Translations under genes and position numbers: made by a program
The notes under the pieces: model-generated
Told to the model about the DNA's origin: nothing
Databases searched by the model: none
Seen by the model: only the letters and a program-made list of their open reading frames with translations
Source: a virus
Length of the DNA: 26,573 bases
Virus record (IMG/VR): IMGVR_UViG_3300024980_000044
Coordinates: 1 to 26,573 of that record
Reading direction: 5' to 3' (one strand)
In this document: piece after piece, positions 676-8,345 of the stretch
How positions within the stretch are numbered: position 1 is the stretch's first letter
Layout: each line of letters begins with the position of its first letter

Positions 676-702
676 CTCCTCTGTGATTAAAGAGACCGCC
701 AC
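676..702 (-). promoter_or_regulatory. RBS region with the two C4 target boxes
   Basis: The minus-strand segment upstream of ATG 669 holds GUGGCGG (696-702) and CACAGAG (679-685), the latter running into the GAGGAG Shine-Dalgarno. Each is a 7-nt perfect complement of a box in the C4-like RNA 45-70 nt upstream. Pairing would mask the ribosome binding site and, through coupling, silence the antirepressor. Confidence 0.65.
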
Positions 703-714
703 TTGCTTGGAAAG

Positions 715-800
715 ATTGGGTGGCGGACTGACTCAGGTTTCCAGTACCGCCACAGAGAGCGGCCCGCCCGAAGGCGGCCCAAGCCAGCCCACCATAATGC
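715..800 (-). ncRNA. c4: C4-like antisense RNA controlling the icd-like/antirepressor operon
   Basis: On the minus strand this leader segment folds into two hairpins. One has GGCC-GCC paired with GGC-GGCC around a UUCG tetraloop (761-780). The other has GUGGCGG (747-753) paired with CCGCCAC (720-726), extended by an inner ACUG/CAGU. Two boxes complement the mRNA just upstream of the 47-codon ORF: CUCUGUG (751-757) pairs with CACAGAG at 679-685, which overlaps the Shine-Dalgarno, and CCGCCAC (720-726) pairs with GUGGCGG at 696-702. The box order permits both pairings at once. This is the layout of C4 RNA in phages P1/P7 and of the related P4 CI RNA. One frame through it also reads like the Ash-type peptide (MVGWLGPPSGGPLSV), a sequence I associate with such loci. 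The ends are approximate. Confidence 0.75.
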
Positions 801-958: not shown

Positions 959-970
959 ATGAAGGTAATT

Positions 971-2059
971 ATGAGCGTCCCATTCGCATGTTATGTTTTT
1001 GTTTTGATAGCTATTGCGAGCGTCATCGTTTTTTTTGCTAAAAAATCAGGCAACCTTAGCCAGAAAATTGAGTTGATTACTCCTACAAAATTAGCTGAAT
1101 ATTTTCTTTGGATGGCCCTTGTCATTTTTCTGATCATGGCAGGTGTATTGGGACGCTATTTAACGCACTTTAATGGTGGGCTTAGTGGAGGGGGAAAGGG
1201 TGATTGGGGGACATTTGGTGACTATCTTGGCGGGACTTTAAATCCAATCTTGAGCTTTTTAAGTCTTATAGCCTTGTTAACTACCATAGTTTTACAGAGC
1301 AAAGAGCTGGAGTTGACACGAAACGAGCTTCAATTAACGCGAGATGAACTTGAACGTAGCGCGTCTGCCCAGGTAGAAACAAAAGAAGTTCTTGATAAAC
1401 AATCAGCAACTTTAGCAAGGCAACAGTTCGAAAGCACTTTTTTCTCGCTGCTTGATCAGCACAATAAAGCGCTTGACCAAATTACAGATAATAATATTCT
1501 CGGACAGATAAACAGTGCAGACGAGGAGAGTGTGCTTCATGATGCAAAATATCCTCCTAACGCTCCAATAGCAGCCATTAAGTTTATTTATCTTTATGTA
1601 TTAGGAGACCACAGATATCGTTCGAAGAGTTTAGTGTCCGCAAAACGGATACTTGAATCGTACAATTCACATTGTGGCCATTACTTCAGAGTTCTTTACC
1701 AACTGTTAAAGTTCATAGCCATAAACGTCCCTGGAGGCACAATCGGCCCAGATTTTACGGCGAAAAAAATTCAAAATGAAAAACTGTCCGACGATGAAAA
1801 AATGTATACCAATATTGTTCGTTCATTTCTTGGTTATGAAATTACTCAATTATTGTCGATCAATTGTTATTGTACGGACGAGAATGATACGTATTGGAAA
1901 TATAGGCTCTTAATCGAAAGATATGCATTTCTTGAGCATATGCCTTTGGAGGTAAATGGTTTTGGAACTCACAAAGTTCTTGAGGAAGTAGCTGAACGTT
2001 ATAAAGGATCGGCATTTGGCAATAGTAACTTCACAAAAAAACAAGTAGGATTGGTCTGA
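971..2059 (+). CDS. putAbiC-type abortive infection membrane protein
   Basis: The 362-residue protein starts at ATG 971, chosen because GAAGG lies 5 nt upstream; an in-frame ATG at 959 has no RBS. Two N-terminal membrane segments (about 5-22 and 44-61) are followed by WGTFGDYLGGTLNP (79-92), a third hydrophobic stretch (94-108) and a long charged coiled coil (109-160) leading to RQQFESTFFSLLDQHN. That order is characteristic of the putative phage abortive infection family (Pfam putAbiC). The C-terminal ~200 residues are presumably cytosolic and of unknown activity. Family knowledge suggests phage exclusion by host dormancy or death; the mechanism is not known. It reads away from the antirepressor leader and precedes the kinase/nuclease block by 150 bp. 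Base composition is AT-rich compared with the phage late genes, in keeping with transfer. Confidence 0.85.
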   Translation: MSVPFACYVFVLIAIASVIVFFAKKSGNLSQKIELITPTKLAEYFLWMALVIFLIMAGVLGRYLTHFNGGLSGGGKGDWGTFGDYLGGTLNPILSFLSLIALLTTIVLQSKELELTRNELQLTRDELERSASAQVETKEVLDKQSATLARQQFESTFFSLLDQHNKALDQITDNNILGQINSADEESVLHDAKYPPNAPIAAIKFIYLYVLGDHRYRSKSLVSAKRILESYNSHCGHYFRVLYQLLKFIAINVPGGTIGPDFTAKKIQNEKLSDDEKMYTNIVRSFLGYEITQLLSINCYCTDENDTYWKYRLLIERYAFLEHMPLEVNGFGTHKVLEEVAERYKGSAFGNSNFTKKQVGLV

Positions 2060-2172
2060 GATACAAAGTCCAACCTATGCTAAATATTCTGGAAAAAAAG
2101 GTGTACGACTTGTGTATTTGGCTTTTCCATTTGGTTTAAGGATAATTTGTTCAATTATGAGTTTTTGAAGTG

Positions 2173-2191
2173 TTTCGTTTATAAAACGAAA
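2173..2191. promoter_or_regulatory. Perfect 8-bp palindrome upstream of nuclease/kinase operon (operator candidate)
   Basis: TTTCGTTT-ATA-AAACGAAA is a perfect inverted repeat with a 3-bp centre. It lies 20-75 bp before any possible start of the next gene, inside AT-rich promoter-like DNA. It is a plausible operator, perhaps for the winged-helix protein encoded next. The rest of 2060-2210 has no gene that I can see. Confidence 0.4.
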
Positions 2192-2210
2192 AATAATGTT
2201 GATTTAAATC

Positions 2211-2954
2211 TTGTTGTACGAGAGCAAAAATGTGTCAAATGTGATAATGATCAATGCCAATAAAGTAGATATTGGCTTAAAGAATAGGGCGACCCGTAAA
2301 GGTCCAGAGCTTGAAATGGTGTATCAGTTTATTGATATAACTACACAAGCGTTTAAACGGAAAAAAAACAAATTGGCTGTTTTTATTGAGCCAATGGTTG
2401 ATACAGCTTACCCAGATATTGTTTTTGCCGAATATGACCCTAGTTGTCTAGATAATTGGAATGATTTACGGAATCATATTGAAATTACGGATATGAAAAT
2501 ATTTGAAAATATAAGAGCTATGAAAGGCGAGAACGCATTATCAATAAGTGAAAGAACCCACTTTAGTTATAAAACGATTTTACAGTCTATAGAGCGACTG
2601 TGCGATGCAGGCCTGATTGAACGTAAAAATGGCAAATGGATATCTAAGCCTTTGAGAGAAATCTATAGCATTAAACGTCTCATATCTGTCGAAGCCAAAA
2701 TAGGGCAGTGGAATACCTTATTAAATCAGGCCGATGCAAATAAATGGTTCGCATCTGAATCATACGCTTTATCACCTGTCAAAAAGCCGAAGGAGGTTAC
2801 GATACAGCGCTTTAAAGATTTTGGTATAGGGCTATATAGTTTCAATGATGGCGAAGTAGTTGAGGTTAATAAGGCAGAAAAGCAAAAACTACCCACTAGT
2901 TATATGTCGTGGATGTTCAATGAGTGGGTTGGACGTTATGAAACTCAATATTAA
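2211..2954 (+). CDS. PD-(D/E)XK-like nuclease with inserted winged helix
   Basis: The protein has up to 247 residues. The start is uncertain: TTG 2211 is the longest, GTG 2232 has GAGAG 7 nt before it, and ATG 2247 has no clear RBS. Numbered from 2211, an acidic pattern E60...PDIVF with D69, then E161-A-K163 inside SVEAKIGQW, followed by a Gln-Ala helix and a SYAL strand, fits a PD-(D/E)XK nuclease core. Between these lies a winged-helix-like segment (about 93-150: ALSISERTHFSYKTILQSIERLCDAGLIERKNGKW). I infer a DNA-binding nuclease or nuclease-like sensor/effector; it could instead be a transcription regulator with a dead nuclease fold. The stop overlaps the strong Shine-Dalgarno of the kinase gene, so the two are co-transcribed. 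No named family comes to mind. Confidence 0.6.
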   Translation: MLYESKNVSNVIMINANKVDIGLKNRATRKGPELEMVYQFIDITTQAFKRKKNKLAVFIEPMVDTAYPDIVFAEYDPSCLDNWNDLRNHIEITDMKIFENIRAMKGENALSISERTHFSYKTILQSIERLCDAGLIERKNGKWISKPLREIYSIKRLISVEAKIGQWNTLLNQADANKWFASESYALSPVKKPKEVTIQRFKDFGIGLYSFNDGEVVEVNKAEKQKLPTSYMSWMFNEWVGRYETQY

Positions 2955-2963
2955 GGAGGCTGT

Positions 2964-3797
2964 TTGAATTTAGCATGTTTTGAACAATTAGGTCTAAGTG
3001 ATCTAGTTGAATTAAAATCCACAGGTCAAAAAACTGTTTACACTGGAATTTCTTCTGAATATGACAAAGTAGTACTTAAGATTGTAAAACCTGGACAAAA
3101 TATTGAGCGTATAAAACGCGAAATTGAAATTGTTAAAGAATGCCGAGGCTTTAATACTTCTATTATTCACGACAATAATGTCATTAGTCAGGATGGGCAA
3201 GAATATTTTTATATTATTGAGTCATTTATTGATGGAGTCACCCTAAAAGAGCATATGACTCAACATGGAAAACTGGATTATGATGAAGTATGTAAGTTTC
3301 TAAATGCAATGTTAAATATTCTTCAAATCTTAGAACAGCGACGTTTAGTACATAGAGATATAAAACCCGATAATATTATAAGAACTACAAATGGTGAATA
3401 TTTTCTTATTGATTTTGGTATTGCCAGAGATTTAACAAAAGAATCATTGACGGACACCAATAACCGTTTTGGTCCACATACAGTTGGGTATGCTCCAATT
3501 GAGCAAATAAACAATGAAAAAAAACATATTGATAGCCGAGTCGACATTTACTCAGTAGGTCTTATAGCTTATGAGATGCTTATGGGGTTCAATCCCTTTT
3601 TAGAGGGATGTGAACATATCGCTCAAGTGTTTAGGAAAGTTGAAAAGGGTTCTTATCCTCTTTTAGAAAATAACAAGAATTATGAAGAGGTTAATACATT
3701 TATATATGCTTGCATGAATAAGTTTAGAAGTAGAAGACCAGCAACAGCGCAAGAAGCATATAAATGGTTTGAAGAAATTTACAAGCAACTGATTTAA
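2964..3797 (+). CDS. Soluble eukaryotic-type Ser/Thr protein kinase
   Basis: The 277-residue protein is almost only a kinase domain, with no membrane segment or sensor domain. All the main motifs are present: the VAIK-type lysine in VVLKIV (K39), the helix-C glutamate (E53), the catalytic loop HRDIKPDN (130-137, D132), DFG (150-152), a TVGYAPIEQ activation-segment end, and DIYSVGLIAYEML. It should be active and phosphorylate Ser/Thr. The start is TTG 2964, set by AAGGAGG at 2953-2959, which overlaps the preceding stop. It sits between the nuclease-like gene and the TIM-barrel gene, with a PP2C phosphatase gene converging from the other side. That pairing suggests a reversible phosphorylation switch acting on the neighbours. 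The substrates are unknown. Confidence 0.9.
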   Translation: MNLACFEQLGLSDLVELKSTGQKTVYTGISSEYDKVVLKIVKPGQNIERIKREIEIVKECRGFNTSIIHDNNVISQDGQEYFYIIESFIDGVTLKEHMTQHGKLDYDEVCKFLNAMLNILQILEQRRLVHRDIKPDNIIRTTNGEYFLIDFGIARDLTKESLTDTNNRFGPHTVGYAPIEQINNEKKHIDSRVDIYSVGLIAYEMLMGFNPFLEGCEHIAQVFRKVEKGSYPLLENNKNYEEVNTFIYACMNKFRSRRPATAQEAYKWFEEIYKQLI

Positions 3798-3807
3798 GGG
3801 GTTAATC

Positions 3808-4989
3808 ATGGACTTATATTTACAATTTGGGCATGGAATGATGGAGCATTGTCGCCATCTTATTTCTAAATGGGGAGAGGGTACCGTTATATTAAGTCCC
3901 CGTGATTTAAAAAGTGAACAACTTGCATCATTTTCCAAAGAATTATTAAAGATAAATGGAAAAACTCTTTTTGATCCTCAGTATTACAATCCAAGAGCTG
4001 ATCATAAGAAGCTAACTGAGCATGAACATTGGTTTGATTCATTTGATACAACTGTGCTATCTGATATTAATCTGATTGTGAATAAATTCGAAGCTATTAA
4101 AGATGCAAACAATCATTCAAATACATATGCTTACATTATTCCCTCAATCATGTGTGATGTCGTCGATAAAATATGGATTGATATCCAAGAGGTTTTCTTG
4201 GAGGCCGCAGCTAGGGTATTTAACGATAAAGAAAAATATTTAACTATCGCTCTAACAAAAGAGTTTCTGTTAGATGATGTTAGTGTTGAAAAACTGGTCG
4301 AGGTTACTGCTGAGTGGGAGATTGATGGCTTTTATATTGTACCCGAGGGCGGGTATCTAATTGAAGAGGCAGATTGGTTAGCTAATTTAGCACTATTGGT
4401 TGCAGGTCTTAAGTTTCAAAATAGAAAGGTGATTGTTGGATACAGCAATCATCAGATGCTGTTTTTGGCTTGTGCAAAAGCCGATGCAATCGCTTCTGGT
4501 TCATTTTTAAATGTCCGTTGTTTTAATGCTGGAAAATTCAATAATGCTGCTGAAGACTCGATAAGTAGAAGATCAATTTGGTATTACTGCCCTCAGGCTC
4601 TCTCAGAATACAGACTTCGAGCTCTTGATGCTGCTAAGAAAGAAGGGGTATTAGATGATTTGAAACCATATGGACAGACAAATGAATATATAAAAGCGCT
4701 GTTTTCTACAGTAAAACCTTCGGTATCTGGTTTCAATGAAAGTCTGGCATTTCGACATTATCTAAGTGAGTTAAAACATCAATGTAACATATCAACGAAA
4801 AGCACTTTTCAAGATACAATCAATTTCCATCGAGAGCTTATAGACAATGGCCTTGAGTTTATCCGAATAATGAAAAATAACGGAGTGCGTGAGTCAGGAC
4901 GTAGTTTTGAAAGTATTGCTGATTATAACTATGATGCCTTGAGAACACTTGAGCGTGAGATTGGTGGCCTACTAAGAAGGAACTGGTAA
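3808..4989 (+). CDS. TIM-barrel-like protein of unknown function in kinase/phosphatase module
   Basis: The 393-residue protein starts at ATG 3808 with AAGGGG upstream, 10 bp after the kinase stop. It has no signal peptide or membrane segment. Alternating strand/helix blocks, with strands such as YLTIALTKEFLL, IDGFYIVPEGG, KVIVGYS and ADAIASGSFLNVR, suggest a (beta/alpha)8 barrel. Conserved-looking spots include FGHGMM and LSPRDL near the N-terminus, FDPQYYNPR (~56-64) and SIWYYCPQALSEYR. The fold reminded me of tRNA-guanine transglycosylase-like barrels, but I see no TGT catalytic or zinc motif, so I do not assign that activity. The genes around it suggest an effector or sensor controlled by phosphorylation. 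Its TAA is directly followed by the stop of the opposite-strand phosphatase gene. Confidence 0.55.
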   Translation: MDLYLQFGHGMMEHCRHLISKWGEGTVILSPRDLKSEQLASFSKELLKINGKTLFDPQYYNPRADHKKLTEHEHWFDSFDTTVLSDINLIVNKFEAIKDANNHSNTYAYIIPSIMCDVVDKIWIDIQEVFLEAAARVFNDKEKYLTIALTKEFLLDDVSVEKLVEVTAEWEIDGFYIVPEGGYLIEEADWLANLALLVAGLKFQNRKVIVGYSNHQMLFLACAKADAIASGSFLNVRCFNAGKFNNAAEDSISRRSIWYYCPQALSEYRLRALDAAKKEGVLDDLKPYGQTNEYIKALFSTVKPSVSGFNESLAFRHYLSELKHQCNISTKSTFQDTINFHRELIDNGLEFIRIMKNNGVRESGRSFESIADYNYDALRTLEREIGGLLRRNW

Positions 4990-5718
4990 TTACATATATC
5001 TGACAGCTAGAGCAGTTAAATCGTCGTTAGAGCCATTAATTATCGCCTTATTAATTAAAGCGTTAACGTTTTTCTCAATGTTGTCAGACTTCCTTAATAT
5101 TATTTCCATTTCTTCTTTTTTTAGATAATCGTGAATGCCGTCAGAAGTTAAAATTAATTTTTCACCAGGCTCAAATACATTTCTGTATGTATCAATATGA
5201 ATCTCATTTTTGCCACCTAGTGACTGCGTAATAATGTGCTTTTTTGGATGGCTGTATCTCATCGATTCTCCAATTGCGCCTGAATCAATAAGATTTTGGA
5301 CATAAGTATGGTCATTTGTAAGTTGCACAAAATTTCGTTTGGTTAGCTTATAGGCTCTGGTGTCACCTAAGTGATAGATTGTGATGAACTCATCATTTGA
5401 CATTACAATTGTGAATACAGTTAAAGCCTTGAACTCAAATTCTTTGCCTAAGTATGCATGTGCATTATTAATTATATTTAGTATAAGTGCATGTGTTAGC
5501 TGATTTTTATGTTTTGAAATTTGTTCTAATAGATATCTAGCTGCTAAGTCGCCGCTGGTAGCGCTTCCAAGACCATCTGCAACACCAATCACAAAAAACT
5601 TTTTATTAGACTGTGCCTTATATGAACCATTTTGAACTGTAAAGCCGTTTATTAGAAAGCAGTCATCGTTTTTTTGATTTTTTGTACCTTTTTTTGTTTG
5701 AGCATAAAAGTGATACAT
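4990..5718 (-). CDS. PP2C-family Ser/Thr protein phosphatase
   Basis: The 242-residue protein starts at ATG 5718, with GGGGA 8 nt upstream; an in-frame TTG at 5733 is less likely. The PP2C metal-site motifs are all there: KNDD (16-19), VADGLGS (46-52), GDTRAYKL, ITQSLGG, LTSDGIHDYL (D193) and SNDDLT (230-235). It should be an active Mn/Mg-dependent phosphatase. It converges on the TIM-barrel gene with no intergenic bases and is AT-rich like the three plus-strand genes, so I group it with them. The likely role is to undo the kinase's phosphorylation, keeping the module off or resetting it. Its promoter must lie in 5719-5944, a gap that also holds a hairpin repeat and the start region of the next plus-strand gene. 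Confidence 0.9.
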   Translation of the reverse strand: MYHFYAQTKKGTKNQKNDDCFLINGFTVQNGSYKAQSNKKFFVIGVADGLGSATSGDLAARYLLEQISKHKNQLTHALILNIINNAHAYLGKEFEFKALTVFTIVMSNDEFITIYHLGDTRAYKLTKRNFVQLTNDHTYVQNLIDSGAIGESMRYSHPKKHIITQSLGGKNEIHIDTYRNVFEPGEKLILTSDGIHDYLKKEEMEIILRKSDNIEKNVNALINKAIINGSNDDLTALAVRYM

Positions 5719-5856
5719 AGAGATGGTCCCCAAAATTGAACTGTGGTCTCATACGTCGATAACTCAGCTATTGTAATCTTATTCGAAAACAATATTGCTT
5801 TAAACTTATATCTGCTTAGATTTTTTTAACTCGTATGTCTGGCTAAGCCGTAGTGC

Positions 5857-5890
5857 GTAGGTTGGGCTGAGGTTCGAAGCCCAACACTAC
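5857..5890. repeat. Hairpin dispersed repeat, copy 1
   Basis: Arms GTTGGGCT (5861-5868) and AGCCCAAC (5878-5885) flank GAGGTTCGA. The same element, with a degenerate left arm, occurs at 7405-7434, so the two membrane-protein genes lie between two copies. This type of GTTGGGCT/AGCCCAAC hairpin occurs dispersed in many bacterial genomes. Confidence 0.7.
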
Positions 5891-5898
5891 AGATAATT

Positions 5899-5925
5899 TT
5901 GACATCACAACGTTAATTTTAAATT
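5899..5925 (+). promoter_or_regulatory. Possible promoter for the membrane-protein pair
   Basis: A perfect TTGACA (5899-5904) is followed 15 bp later by TAAATT (5920-5925). The spacing is short for sigma-70, so this is a weak call. It lies 20 bp before ATG 5945. Confidence 0.3.
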
Positions 5926-5944
5926 TTGTATCAGAGACAACACC

Positions 5945-6643
5945 ATGGATCTAGCTTTTCAGGTAAAGAATACGACGGAAGCAGTTCAGAATCTGCCTTC
6001 CTTGCTAAGAGCCATTTACGAGCTCGTTACCACCCCAGGCGGAGCGGTATTACTTGTTCTACTCTTCCTAGGGCTTCTGGCTAATAGAGGATTCTTTTCG
6101 CGAGTGTTTGATATGTTTGAACATAAGGAAAGGCGAAGGCTGGAACAAATCAATGAATACGTATTGTCACATGACGCCGCTGATCCGGAGACGATTAAAG
6201 TTGTTAAAGACTTGCGGGATGCCCACTATTTTAAGGTGGCCACGGGTATTTATGCCGAGAATCGTACTCGTAGTGCATTTATCAAGCTGCATCAAACCTC
6301 TTCCCACTGCATTGCCTGGAAGCATATTGAGAGGGCTCGACCTTATATGGAAATTGCTGAAGACCAAACTATTACAATTCGTGACTTTAATTTCATTGAA
6401 AAGCTTGGTTATTGGTACAACCTATGTGTTGCCATCCTAAGCTTACTTTTTGCCGTGCTCTTAATAGTCGCGTTTTTATTATCAGACACTAAAAACATAA
6501 CATCGCTGGAAAGTAGTTTTGGAAGCTCTCTTTTTCTTCTGGTATTAGCAGTTGTTATGTTCATTGAAAATCTGCCAGTTCATGCAGCTAAGCGAATTGC
6601 CAACGAGTTGCAACGCTTGCGTGATTGTAGTTCAGCCAAGTAG
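5945..6643 (+). CDS. Three-TM membrane protein, unknown
   Basis: The 232-residue protein starts at ATG 5945 with only a weak AGAGAC ahead of it. One hydrophobic segment lies near the N-terminus (about 34-52, VLLVLLFLGLLANRGFF), followed by a charged soluble region (~55-150) with KERRRLEQINEYVL and a basic/acidic helix pattern. Two more segments lie near the C-terminus (about 158-178 and 190-207). I do not recognise a family. It is followed after 36 bp by another membrane protein gene on the same strand, and both sit between two copies of the same hairpin repeat. The place beside putAbiC and the kinase module suggests an accessory or defence role, which is inference only. Confidence 0.65.
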   Translation: MDLAFQVKNTTEAVQNLPSLLRAIYELVTTPGGAVLLVLLFLGLLANRGFFSRVFDMFEHKERRRLEQINEYVLSHDAADPETIKVVKDLRDAHYFKVATGIYAENRTRSAFIKLHQTSSHCIAWKHIERARPYMEIAEDQTITIRDFNFIEKLGYWYNLCVAILSLLFAVLLIVAFLLSDTKNITSLESSFGSSLFLLVLAVVMFIENLPVHAAKRIANELQRLRDCSSAK

Positions 6644-6679
6644 GTACGCATCACCTACCATTTTTCTAGCAGGAATCCT

Positions 6680-7399
6680 ATGGAATATATACCAATATTC
6701 TTAGCCTTTGCGTCGAGTATTATCGCGATCAGAGGAGACACTTGGGATAAAACACAAATTGGCATACGAAAGCTTACGGGACCAGGACGGAATACCCTCG
6801 CCCTAGTTGTTTGTGTATTGATCTATTCAATTTTTTCGACTTATGAACAACGTGACCAAAAGCAAGCTGAAGAACTTGAGAAGAAGAACCTTGGAAAGAT
6901 TATTGCCGTTGAAGTTGATCGAAGCCTTAAAAGCCTATTGTCCCCCTTTAAGCTTCTTTATATGGAAAACAAGGGGGGTGACTATATCCCCGAAGAAAAG
7001 ATTACTTTCGACATGATGCTTGATGACAACATGCTTAAAGCGGCGCAAAGCACATGCCTTCAGTTGCCCCCAAAATCTTTCATTTCATATTCAGAAAAAG
7101 GGGCGACTTGGGGATATTTTTTCCATAAAGACATTACGGCAGGTCTAGCTCGTCTTGACCAATTGATTGATCGGTATGCCATTAAAATGAATGCAGATAT
7201 TCTCGACGCAATTCATGATCTTCAGGCGAATGGCTATTTCAGCAGTTATGCAAAATCTTATGTGCCATGGGATCCCACCAAAAAAAAGAGCACTTTGAAC
7301 CCCTGTATGTTTGGCCAAGTTATCGGCTCGCATAAGGAGTATCTCACTATGCTGAAAAGAATCGAGTCTCTTAATCAGCCAGAGAAGCTTATTCGCTAG
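6680..7399 (+). CDS. Membrane-anchored protein, unknown, partner of preceding gene
   Basis: The 239-residue protein starts at ATG 6680 with AGGA 6 nt upstream. Two hydrophobic segments (about 4-17 and 37-54) are followed by a charged helix (YEQRDQKQAEELEKKN) and a ~170-residue soluble domain ending in KLIR. Two cysteines (in STCLQLP and NPCMFG) may be structural. I recognise no domain. The tandem order and 36-bp spacing suggest an operon with the three-TM gene. The soluble part could face the cytosol if the two segments form a hairpin. Its function is unknown. Confidence 0.65.
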   Translation: MEYIPIFLAFASSIIAIRGDTWDKTQIGIRKLTGPGRNTLALVVCVLIYSIFSTYEQRDQKQAEELEKKNLGKIIAVEVDRSLKSLLSPFKLLYMENKGGDYIPEEKITFDMMLDDNMLKAAQSTCLQLPPKSFISYSEKGATWGYFFHKDITAGLARLDQLIDRYAIKMNADILDAIHDLQANGYFSSYAKSYVPWDPTKKKSTLNPCMFGQVIGSHKEYLTMLKRIESLNQPEKLIR

Positions 7400-7440: not shown

Positions 7441-7763
7441 GCACCGATGCTACACATTGATTGATAGGATGCTACCGGAATCAATACCTAGGAAGCCAAA
7501 ATGAAAAGGCAAATATCAGCCCCGGTAGCGTTTTAAATAATAGCAGAATATAGAAGATGTTAGTAATTACTCAAGGCAAGCCAGCGCCTGCCTTGTTTCA
7601 AAACCATCATCCCGTATGACGTTCGCGGAATACGGGATAATCCGAGTCCTAAAATCCTGGATTCCGTAAGCTCCATCCAGGCTACCGGCTACCCTACGGA
7701 AATGTTCAAGCAAATCGCCCGGATGAAGATTGCTTTTTGTATTTGCTTGGATACAATGACGCT
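7441..7763. other. Gene-free gap rich in inverted repeats
   Basis: I see no convincing gene here. It holds a series of perfect inverted repeats: GCTACCGG/CCGGTAGC (7471-7478/7522-7529), CAAGGCA/TGCCTTG (7572-7578/7589-7595), ATCCCGTAT/ATACGGGAT (7609-7617/7630-7638) and CCTGGAT/ATCCAGG (7656-7662/7675-7681). The last two resemble dispersed 'cccggattccg...atccggg' repeats of gammaproteobacterial genomes. The CAAGGCA hairpin could terminate the membrane-gene transcript. Confidence 0.5.
7730..7757 (+). promoter_or_regulatory. Putative toxin-antitoxin promoter
   Basis: TTGCTT (7730-7735) and TACAAT (7752-7757) are 16 bp apart. Transcription would start about 7 bp downstream of the -10, at or beside the toxin ATG 7764, implying a leaderless or nearly leaderless toxin mRNA. 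Confidence 0.35.
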
Positions 7764-8057
7764 ATGAACTACATCGTTGAACAAACCGAAGCTTTCGCCA
7801 AGTGGCATTCTGCCTTACGTGATTTACGTGCCAAAACCGCGATAGCACGGCGCATCGACCGCGCTGAGCACGGCAATCTGGGCGATGTTAAGCCGGTAGG
7901 CGGCGATGTATCCGAAATGCGCGTTGATGTCGGAGCGGGGTATCGGGTTTACTTTACATTGCGCGGCGGCGTGGTCGTGGTGTTGCTCGCCGGTGGCGAC
8001 AAATCCACACAACAAGCCGACATTAAACGTGCTGTTGAACTTGCTAAGGAGATTTAA
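7764..8057 (+). CDS. higB: RelE/HigB-type toxin (addiction module killer protein)
   Basis: The 97-residue protein starts at ATG 7764 (MNYIVEQTEAFAKWH), the usual start of this family; an in-frame ATG at 7737 lies upstream of the predicted -10 box. The motifs SALRDLRAKTAIARRIDR, GDVKPVGGDVSEMRVDVGAGYRVYF and VVLLAGGDKSTQQADIKRA are typical of the Gp49-like/HigB branch of RelE/ParE toxins, which cut mRNA at the ribosome. The antitoxin gene follows after 3 bp. Toxin-first order is the HigBA norm. The pair lies between the repeat-rich gap and the phage late operon, on the opposite strand to the latter, and probably stabilises the prophage. Confidence 0.9.
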   Translation: MNYIVEQTEAFAKWHSALRDLRAKTAIARRIDRAEHGNLGDVKPVGGDVSEMRVDVGAGYRVYFTLRGGVVVVLLAGGDKSTQQADIKRAVELAKEI

Positions 8058-8060
8058 ATC

Positions 8061-8345
8061 ATGAGCGTAAAACTATTACCGTTTGATATGGCCAGTCTGC
8101 TCGATAGCGACGAGGCTATCAGTGAATACCTGTCCCAAGTACTTGATGACGGCGACAGCGACGAACTGCTCCGCGCTTTGGGTTACATCGCTAAAGCTAA
8201 AGGCATGGCGATGATTGCCAATGAGTCCGGCCTTGGGCGCGAAAGCCTGTACAAGGCGCTTTCCCCTGGTTCCAAACCGCGCTTTGACACGATTTTAAAG
8301 GTGATCAAGGCGCTTGGAGTTAAGCTGCATGTCGAGCCGGTTTAG
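8061..8345 (+). CDS. higA: HigA-type antitoxin with HTH domain
   Basis: The 94-residue protein starts at ATG 8061, with AAGGAG (8046-8051) inside the toxin's 3' end. The C-terminal half has an Xre-like helix-turn-helix: GMAMIANESGLGRESLYKALSPGSKPRFDTILKVIKALG. This is the pattern of the 'addiction module antidote' family that pairs with Gp49-like toxins. The N-terminal acidic region (LLDSDEAISEYLSQVLDDGDSDEL) probably binds the toxin. It should neutralise HigB and repress the shared promoter. Confidence 0.92.
   Translation: MSVKLLPFDMASLLDSDEAISEYLSQVLDDGDSDELLRALGYIAKAKGMAMIANESGLGRESLYKALSPGSKPRFDTILKVIKALGVKLHVEPV

Follow-up and report, generated by a model that had tools for sequence, protein, structure and literature searches.

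Antirepressor synthesis in phage P1 is repressed in trans by c4, which is processed to an RNA of ~77 nt. The P1 c4 RNA, which in P1 and P7 belongs to the c4-icd-ant (immI) arrangement, is described as trans-acting (PMC8546580). In Gifsy-1, where the antirepressor gene anrP lies in the isrK-orf45-anrP region, a helix is disturbed by either of two changes in IsrK (G28A, G31A) or two changes downstream (C162U, C159U) and is restored by the compensatory combinations G28A/C162U and G31A/C159U, and a processed RNA of ~80 nt has been reported (PMC4825925). IsrK supplied in trans raises anrP translation about 139-fold, an effect lost with either of the IsrK changes, and G28A in cis raises basal expression (93 vs 4) (PMC4825925). 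The same paper likens IsrK to seqA of phage P4, describes the transcription termination exerted through CI, seqA, and seqC in that phage, and does not contain the term 'phage P1' (PMC4825925). The only paper that we found to name both 'C4 RNA' and IsrK treats them separately. Here we analyze a viral locus in which counterparts of both RNAs precede a BRO-N gene, and we ask how it compares with P1, Gifsy-1, P4, and the C4 loci of bacterial genomes.

Results

The DNA analyzed, referred to as the window, is the 26,573-nt IMG/VR virus record IMGVR_UViG_3300024980_000044, and all elements of the operon described below are on its minus strand. The original prediction, made from the letters alone, was of a C4-type antisense RNA with two target boxes, followed by an icd-like ORF and then by a BRO-N antirepressor gene, with a search by the Rfam C4 model proposed as a check. 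That search, in which the whole window was compared with all of Rfam, bears the prediction out: the C4 model (RF01695) matches 716-799 over its full length (model positions 1-87 of 87) with 70.4 bits, above the gathering score of 45 (E = 4.6e-12), and the corresponding scores of P1 and Gifsy-1 are 68.8 and 69.0 bits. The minimum-energy fold of 716-800 consists of a closing stem around two hairpins, as the C4 family requires, and the C4 segment alone folds with -46.9 kcal/mol (z = -3.9), a value equaled by none of 200 shuffles. BLAST of the C4 segment against phage records gave weak, unrelated matches only. Judged by model score and predicted fold, the region is a C4-type antisense RNA and a new example of an already known RNA family.

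An AUG is found at C4 position 5 in 125 of 144 loci, and the window copy is at 793-795. The reading frame that opens with it has at least 40 codons in 77 of 127 loci, and only 20 in the window; in Gifsy-1 it is the start of orf45.

The genes downstream are as first proposed. An icd-like leader ORF of 47 amino acids (526-669), which has neither a Pfam nor a PHROG match, begins at 669 and its stop ends one base before the ATG (524) of the next gene. That gene (3-524) encodes a protein of 174 amino acids, its 3' end cut by the window edge, with a Bro-N domain (PF02498, E = 2.3e-22, 79.8 bits against a cut-off of 25.6) and matches to PHROG anti-repressor families; its role as an antirepressor is predicted by homology. 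BRO-N indeed stands where P1 has Ant, which matches the ANT/KilAC domain instead. Among the cellular relatives that we found for the BRO-N protein, the nearest, at 79% identity, comes from a Methylobacter genome, and the host of the phage is probably a methane-eating bacterium. One phage record shares the BRO-N DNA at 71%, with no C4 or sRNA-Xcc1 match listed there, and a single scan of genome contigs gave only two BRO-N relatives.

Divergent from the C4 operon, the window carries a cargo-like block at 959-7396, possibly an anti-phage defense cluster, which encodes a putAbiC-domain protein, a Ser/Thr kinase resembling the PD-T4-6/mad6 models, a PP2C phosphatase, and unknown proteins. Two adjacent small genes at 7737-8345 match the PHROG 'toxin' phrog_3445 and 'transcriptional repressor' phrog_4268, and are likely to be a toxin-antitoxin pair.

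Upstream of C4, a candidate sigma-70-type promoter was read by eye at 930-958 (TTGACA at 958-953, a 17-nt spacer, and TAATCT at 935-930). Its -10 box is weak and a strict promoter scan did not list it. The pattern TTGACN-N16-18-TANNNT precedes C4 in 84 of 144 loci, against about 1 in shuffles. The transcription start expected from this promoter, near 923, coincides with the 5' end of a match to the Rfam isrK model (RF01394) at 847-923, the equivalent of a1b1 in P1 and of seqA in P4. With 41.6 bits (E = 1.5e-7 in a 701-nt search) this match is under the gathering score of 50, and we call the leader IsrK-like rather than count it as an isrK member; its position, terminator, and b1/a1 boxes agree with isrK. 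The terminator is a predicted intrinsic-terminator-like hairpin at 845-869, AGCGCATCGAATGCGCT followed by ATTTTTTT; terminator scans give about one chance match per region, and this hairpin also aligns to the 3' hairpin and U-run of isrK. The separate Rfam family c4-a1b1 (RF03163) had no match at E up to 1 in positions 400-1100, where the a1 and b1 sequences themselves are present. A 9-bp match of CCAGCCCGC in the leader to GTGGGCTGG in the 5' strand of C4 was considered as a further pairing and rejected, there being no cognate excess across loci (5.54 vs 5.42).

Comparison with P1, in which the a boxes are GTTAGTG/CACTAAC/GTTAGTGA and the b boxes TTGACAG/CTGTCAA/TTGACAG, fixed the corresponding boxes in the window. 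Segment a' of C4 (TCTCTGTG, 751-758) occupies the loop and flank of the second hairpin, and pairs with a copy on either side of C4. Its target a2 (CACAGAG, 679-685) overlaps the Shine-Dalgarno that serves the icd-like ORF, its end lying 9 nt upstream of the ATG, and the a'/a2 match is 7 nt long (757-751/685-679); in most loci, as in the window, a2 is on the Shine-Dalgarno about 8-9 nt before the start codon. The leader copy a1 (ACAGAGA, 874-880) is a 7-nt complement of a' 758-752. Segment b' (CTGGAAA, 738-744), at the position homologous to P1 CTGTCAA, is complementary over 7 nt (744-738) to the leader copy b1 (TTTCCAG, 891-897) and over 6 nt to b2 (TTTCCA, 708-713); the latter match, 743-738/713-708, is the weakest single one in the window. 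Single boxes are short, and the window a' reaches a run of at least 7 with the targets of 6 of 143 other loci; b1 is matched as well by none of the 143 other C4s.

The four 7-mers named in the original prediction are where it had placed them on the minus strand: CTCTGTG at 757-751, CCGCCAC at 726-720, CACAGAG at 685-679, and GTGGCGG at 702-696. Its first pair, CUCUGUG with CACAGAG on the Shine-Dalgarno, is the a'/a2 complement, and covaries over 142 loci. Its second pair, CCGCCAC with GUGGCGG (726-720/702-696), does not correspond to the second box of the P1 layout, for which the P1-type b pairing is that of b' 744-738 with 713-708. The CCGCCAC segment (c', 720-726) forms the 3' side of the stem that closes C4, and it covaries with the target and not with the leader (4.86 vs 4.93). 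This pair is likewise short, a run of at least 7 being reached by a chance partner in 17 of 143 loci. The promoter, the IsrK-like leader, a1/b1, and b'/b2 had no place in that first account.

The GTGGCGG segment (c2, 696-702) is a downstream copy of the opposite strand of the closing stem, and could pair with c' in a hairpin, 726-696, whose loop contains b2 and which cannot coexist with the closing stem of C4. The suggestion that CCGCCAC has two possible partners, its own hairpin or the target, thus holds, the alternatives being the closing stem and c2. A c'/c2 hairpin of at least 6 bp, G-U pairs allowed, can form in 127 of 144 loci, and b2 comes before c2 in 117. In the best predicted fold of the whole leader region of the window, the leader pairs with C4, and c' with c2.

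To place the locus among its relatives, 151 genomes were surveyed from the order of the Methylobacter genome that holds the nearest BRO-N relative. C4 exceeds its cut-off in 68 of these. There are 127 isrK matches at E up to 0.001, and for 105 of them a C4 on the same strand is listed 7-46 nt downstream; direct scanning adds 16, bringing the total to 121 of 127. No C4 was found downstream of the remaining 6, two of which (L191 and L198) lay outside the direct scan. In a phylum-wide draw, C4 lies directly downstream in 20 of 20 scanned isrK loci, each from another genome, and most of these loci also match c4-a1b1, which overlaps isrK at one register. The same succession of isrK and C4 was found by scanning P1, Gifsy-1, and P4.

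As a measure of covariation over 142 non-redundant loci, we took the longest run of Watson-Crick pairs that a part of C4 can form with its own flanks or with those of other loci. For a', the mean run is 6.78 with the cognate leader and 5.24 with non-cognate leaders (permutation sd 0.08-0.09), and 7.42 versus 4.81 with the target. The values for b' are 7.21 versus 5.17 with the leader and 6.95 versus 4.88 with the target, and c' with the target gives 5.82 versus 4.93. Three controls, c' with the leader, the C4 5' strand, and hairpin 1, have no cognate excess in the 142 loci. Segment a is complementary to both leader and target in 102 of 144 loci, where permuted flanks predict 2.6, and uses 45 different 5-mers; for segment b the count is 128 of 144, with 4.2 expected and 44 different 5-mers. 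The strongest evidence for selection on both target sets to match C4 is this three-way complementarity of a and b. Related prophages contribute loci that are only partly independent of one another, a concern limited by the number of distinct box sequences. Two-strand co-folding separated cognate from non-cognate combinations poorly (p = 0.25 and 0.02), and nested folding cannot represent loop-loop contacts.

Among 121 ORFs that follow C4, the recognized domains include BRO-N (17), KilA-N (10), pRha (6), DUF7673 (6), P22_AR_N (5), RadC (4), ORF6N (3), and AntA (2). Since BRO-N is common in this position, the window is a further example of a known arrangement. In 103 loci C4 directly precedes an ORF of at least 80 amino acids, with no icd-type ORF in between. 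C4 is also seen before genes that do not encode antirepressors (RadC-like, DUF7673, AlpA, and DnaG-type zinc ribbon, among loci L022-L180). As a2 is often just before the start of such a gene, control by C4 may extend beyond antirepressors.

The window shares with the c4-icd-ant region of P1 and P7 the C4 fold with its a' and b' segments, the a1/b1 sites upstream of C4 and the a2/b2 sites downstream of it, and a short icd-type ORF with a stop that meets the antirepressor start. P1 also carries an isrK-like leader (35.1 bits, below the cut-off) and the same three-way boxes. It differs in its ANT/KilAC antirepressor, in the sequences of the boxes, and in RF03163, which has no counterpart match in the window. 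With Gifsy-1 the window has in common a terminated IsrK leader, a C4 segment (69 bits in Gifsy-1), and an antirepressor gene. There, however, a2 is directly before anrP and orf45 starts inside C4, whereas the window has the 20-codon C4 frame and a separate icd-like ORF, and AnrP has an ORF6N domain instead of Bro-N. The four Gifsy-1 bases whose changes disturb the published helix map to b1 (TTGGCGT, nt 26-32) and b' (ACGCCAA, nt 158-164), which are perfect complements; the published b1-b' pairing is the counterpart of 897-891/744-738 in the window. Gifsy-1 G114 and C175 lie in the C4 closing stem. In P4, the region annotated as a protein repressor 'cI' (L220) matches C4 with 74.9 bits, with an isrK match of 60.8 bits upstream (matches at 1621-1708 and 1816-1893). 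In Rfam terms, the CI RNA of the P4 seqA-CI-seqC system is a member of the C4 family and the seqA side is a member of the isrK family, as in the window; the action described for P4 is termination of transcription of the replication genes, unlike the control of antirepressor translation proposed here.

A second RNA occupies the place of C4 before related BRO-N genes. It is sRNA-Xcc1 (RF02221), found at L004:2870-2953, L011:2883-2964, L012:1186-1269, and L021:2875-2958, with 63.3 bits in L011 (cut-off 53) and 47.8 to 48.8 bits, below the cut-off, in the other three. Like C4 it has a closing stem, two hairpins, an a' segment in the second loop, and a b' segment before the 3' strand; it is nonetheless a separate Rfam family, and it was not found in the window. 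In 15 loci, a terminated upstream leader and target boxes at the ribosome-binding site covary with the RNA. The same held in 30 further loci from different genomes, in which the runs for a are 6.83 versus 5.10 with the leader and 6.50 versus 4.59 with the target, those for b are 8.60 versus 5.76 and 5.90 versus 4.92, and the controls have no excess; loci L221-L263 are among those used in this covariation analysis. Genes that follow sRNA-Xcc1 include BRO-N, pRha, and the SymE toxin. In the sRNA-Xcc1 literature we found no repression of the downstream gene and no validated target named. According to a 2025 paper, symE adjoins sRNA-Xcc1 in cassettes of integrons; the authors suggest that regulation there follows a divergent mechanism, which they leave unnamed (PMC12444791).

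In the virus record IMGVR_UViG_3300004237_000003, sRNA-Xcc1 precedes one BRO-N gene (L011) and C4 precedes another (L018), and there is a second C4 at L018:1263-1345.

Discussion

How might this leader region control the genes behind it? What the analysis shows directly is the C4 family membership, the layout, and the way in which the a, b, and c pairings covary from locus to locus. Together with the parallels to P1 and Gifsy-1 they favor, with a probability of about 0.8, an immunity leader of an antirepressor operon, in which C4 silences the icd-like ORF and BRO-N and the IsrK-like leader relieves that silencing. The promoter would start a transcript that usually ends after about 77 nt as the IsrK-like RNA, and transcripts that read through would continue across C4 and the target site into the icd-like ORF and the BRO-N gene. 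Processing would release the ~84-nt C4 segment as an antisense RNA, whose a' and b' segments would pair with a2 and b2 and cover the Shine-Dalgarno of the icd-like ORF. Translation of that ORF would be blocked, and with it the coupled translation of BRO-N, so that the prophage would remain silent. The second copies of the sites in the leader, a1 and b1, would let the leader bind C4: as a free short RNA it could be a decoy that relieves repression, and within the same transcript it could impose an alternative fold in which the C4 3' strand is freed to pair with c2. The model takes from P1 and Gifsy-1 its termination and read-through, the processing of C4, the repression and coupling of translation, and the role of the leader as a decoy.

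It could instead be that C4 acts as described for P4: its pairing with a1/b1 and a2/b2, while the transcript is still nascent, would then mainly cause premature transcription termination and not a block to ribosomes. The P4 CI and seqA regions being members of the same two RNA families (74.9 and 60.8 bits) speaks for this, as do the published termination by CI, seqA, and seqC (PMC4825925) and the terminator-like hairpin that ends the window leader. The position of a2 on the Shine-Dalgarno in the window and most loci is, however, what would be expected of a translational target, and we regard termination as the main mode of action to be unlikely, although it is the alternative that deserves the most weight. 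Blocked translation can itself expose RNA to termination, so the two effects can coexist.

We consider it still less probable that the leader and C4 work only in cis, as a riboregulator within one transcript like structures A and B of Gifsy-1, with free C4 not the main repressor. The best fold of the window matches the silent structure, and Gifsy-1 b1 mutants raise basal expression in cis (PMC4825925). Set against this are the ~80-nt processed RNA of Gifsy-1 (PMC4825925), the trans action ascribed to P1 c4 (PMC8546580), and the conservation, besides a1/b1, of a target a2/b2 that a leader-C4 helix alone does not require. A pure decoy, on the other hand, does not predict the rise in basal expression from 4 to 93, and a switch in cis therefore probably operates in addition to repression by C4. 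That the C4 region is an inherited, functionless remnant in this phage is very improbable: the b'/b2 match of only 6 nt, the weak -10 box, and the fragmentary record that cuts BRO-N at its end could be read in this way, but neither the boxes nor the fold nor the ORFs are damaged, and C4 scores as highly as its counterparts in P1 and Gifsy-1.

The comparison also bears on IsrK. From the pairing of the two families in genomes and phages, IsrK is the leader of C4, an under-recognized unification: isrK and C4, which have no common Rfam clan, form one covarying module. The C4 boxes, once named, explain the published Gifsy-1 mutations, and predict that IsrK works by titrating C4. The window adds a BRO-N operon to the C4 family, and the predicted target of sRNA-Xcc1 is the gene immediately downstream of it. 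The balance of evidence tilts slightly toward a wider generalization, that of an exchangeable three-part RNA circuit composed of a terminated decoy leader, an antisense RNA, and a target at the ribosome-binding site, in which IsrK would be the leader of C4 and not a stand-alone sRNA, and the antisense role before related BRO-N genes and before other genes (RadC-like after C4, SymE after sRNA-Xcc1) would be filled by no fewer than two Rfam families, those of C4 and sRNA-Xcc1. If this is true, the box sequences change together, so that immunity specificity can switch while the architecture stays.
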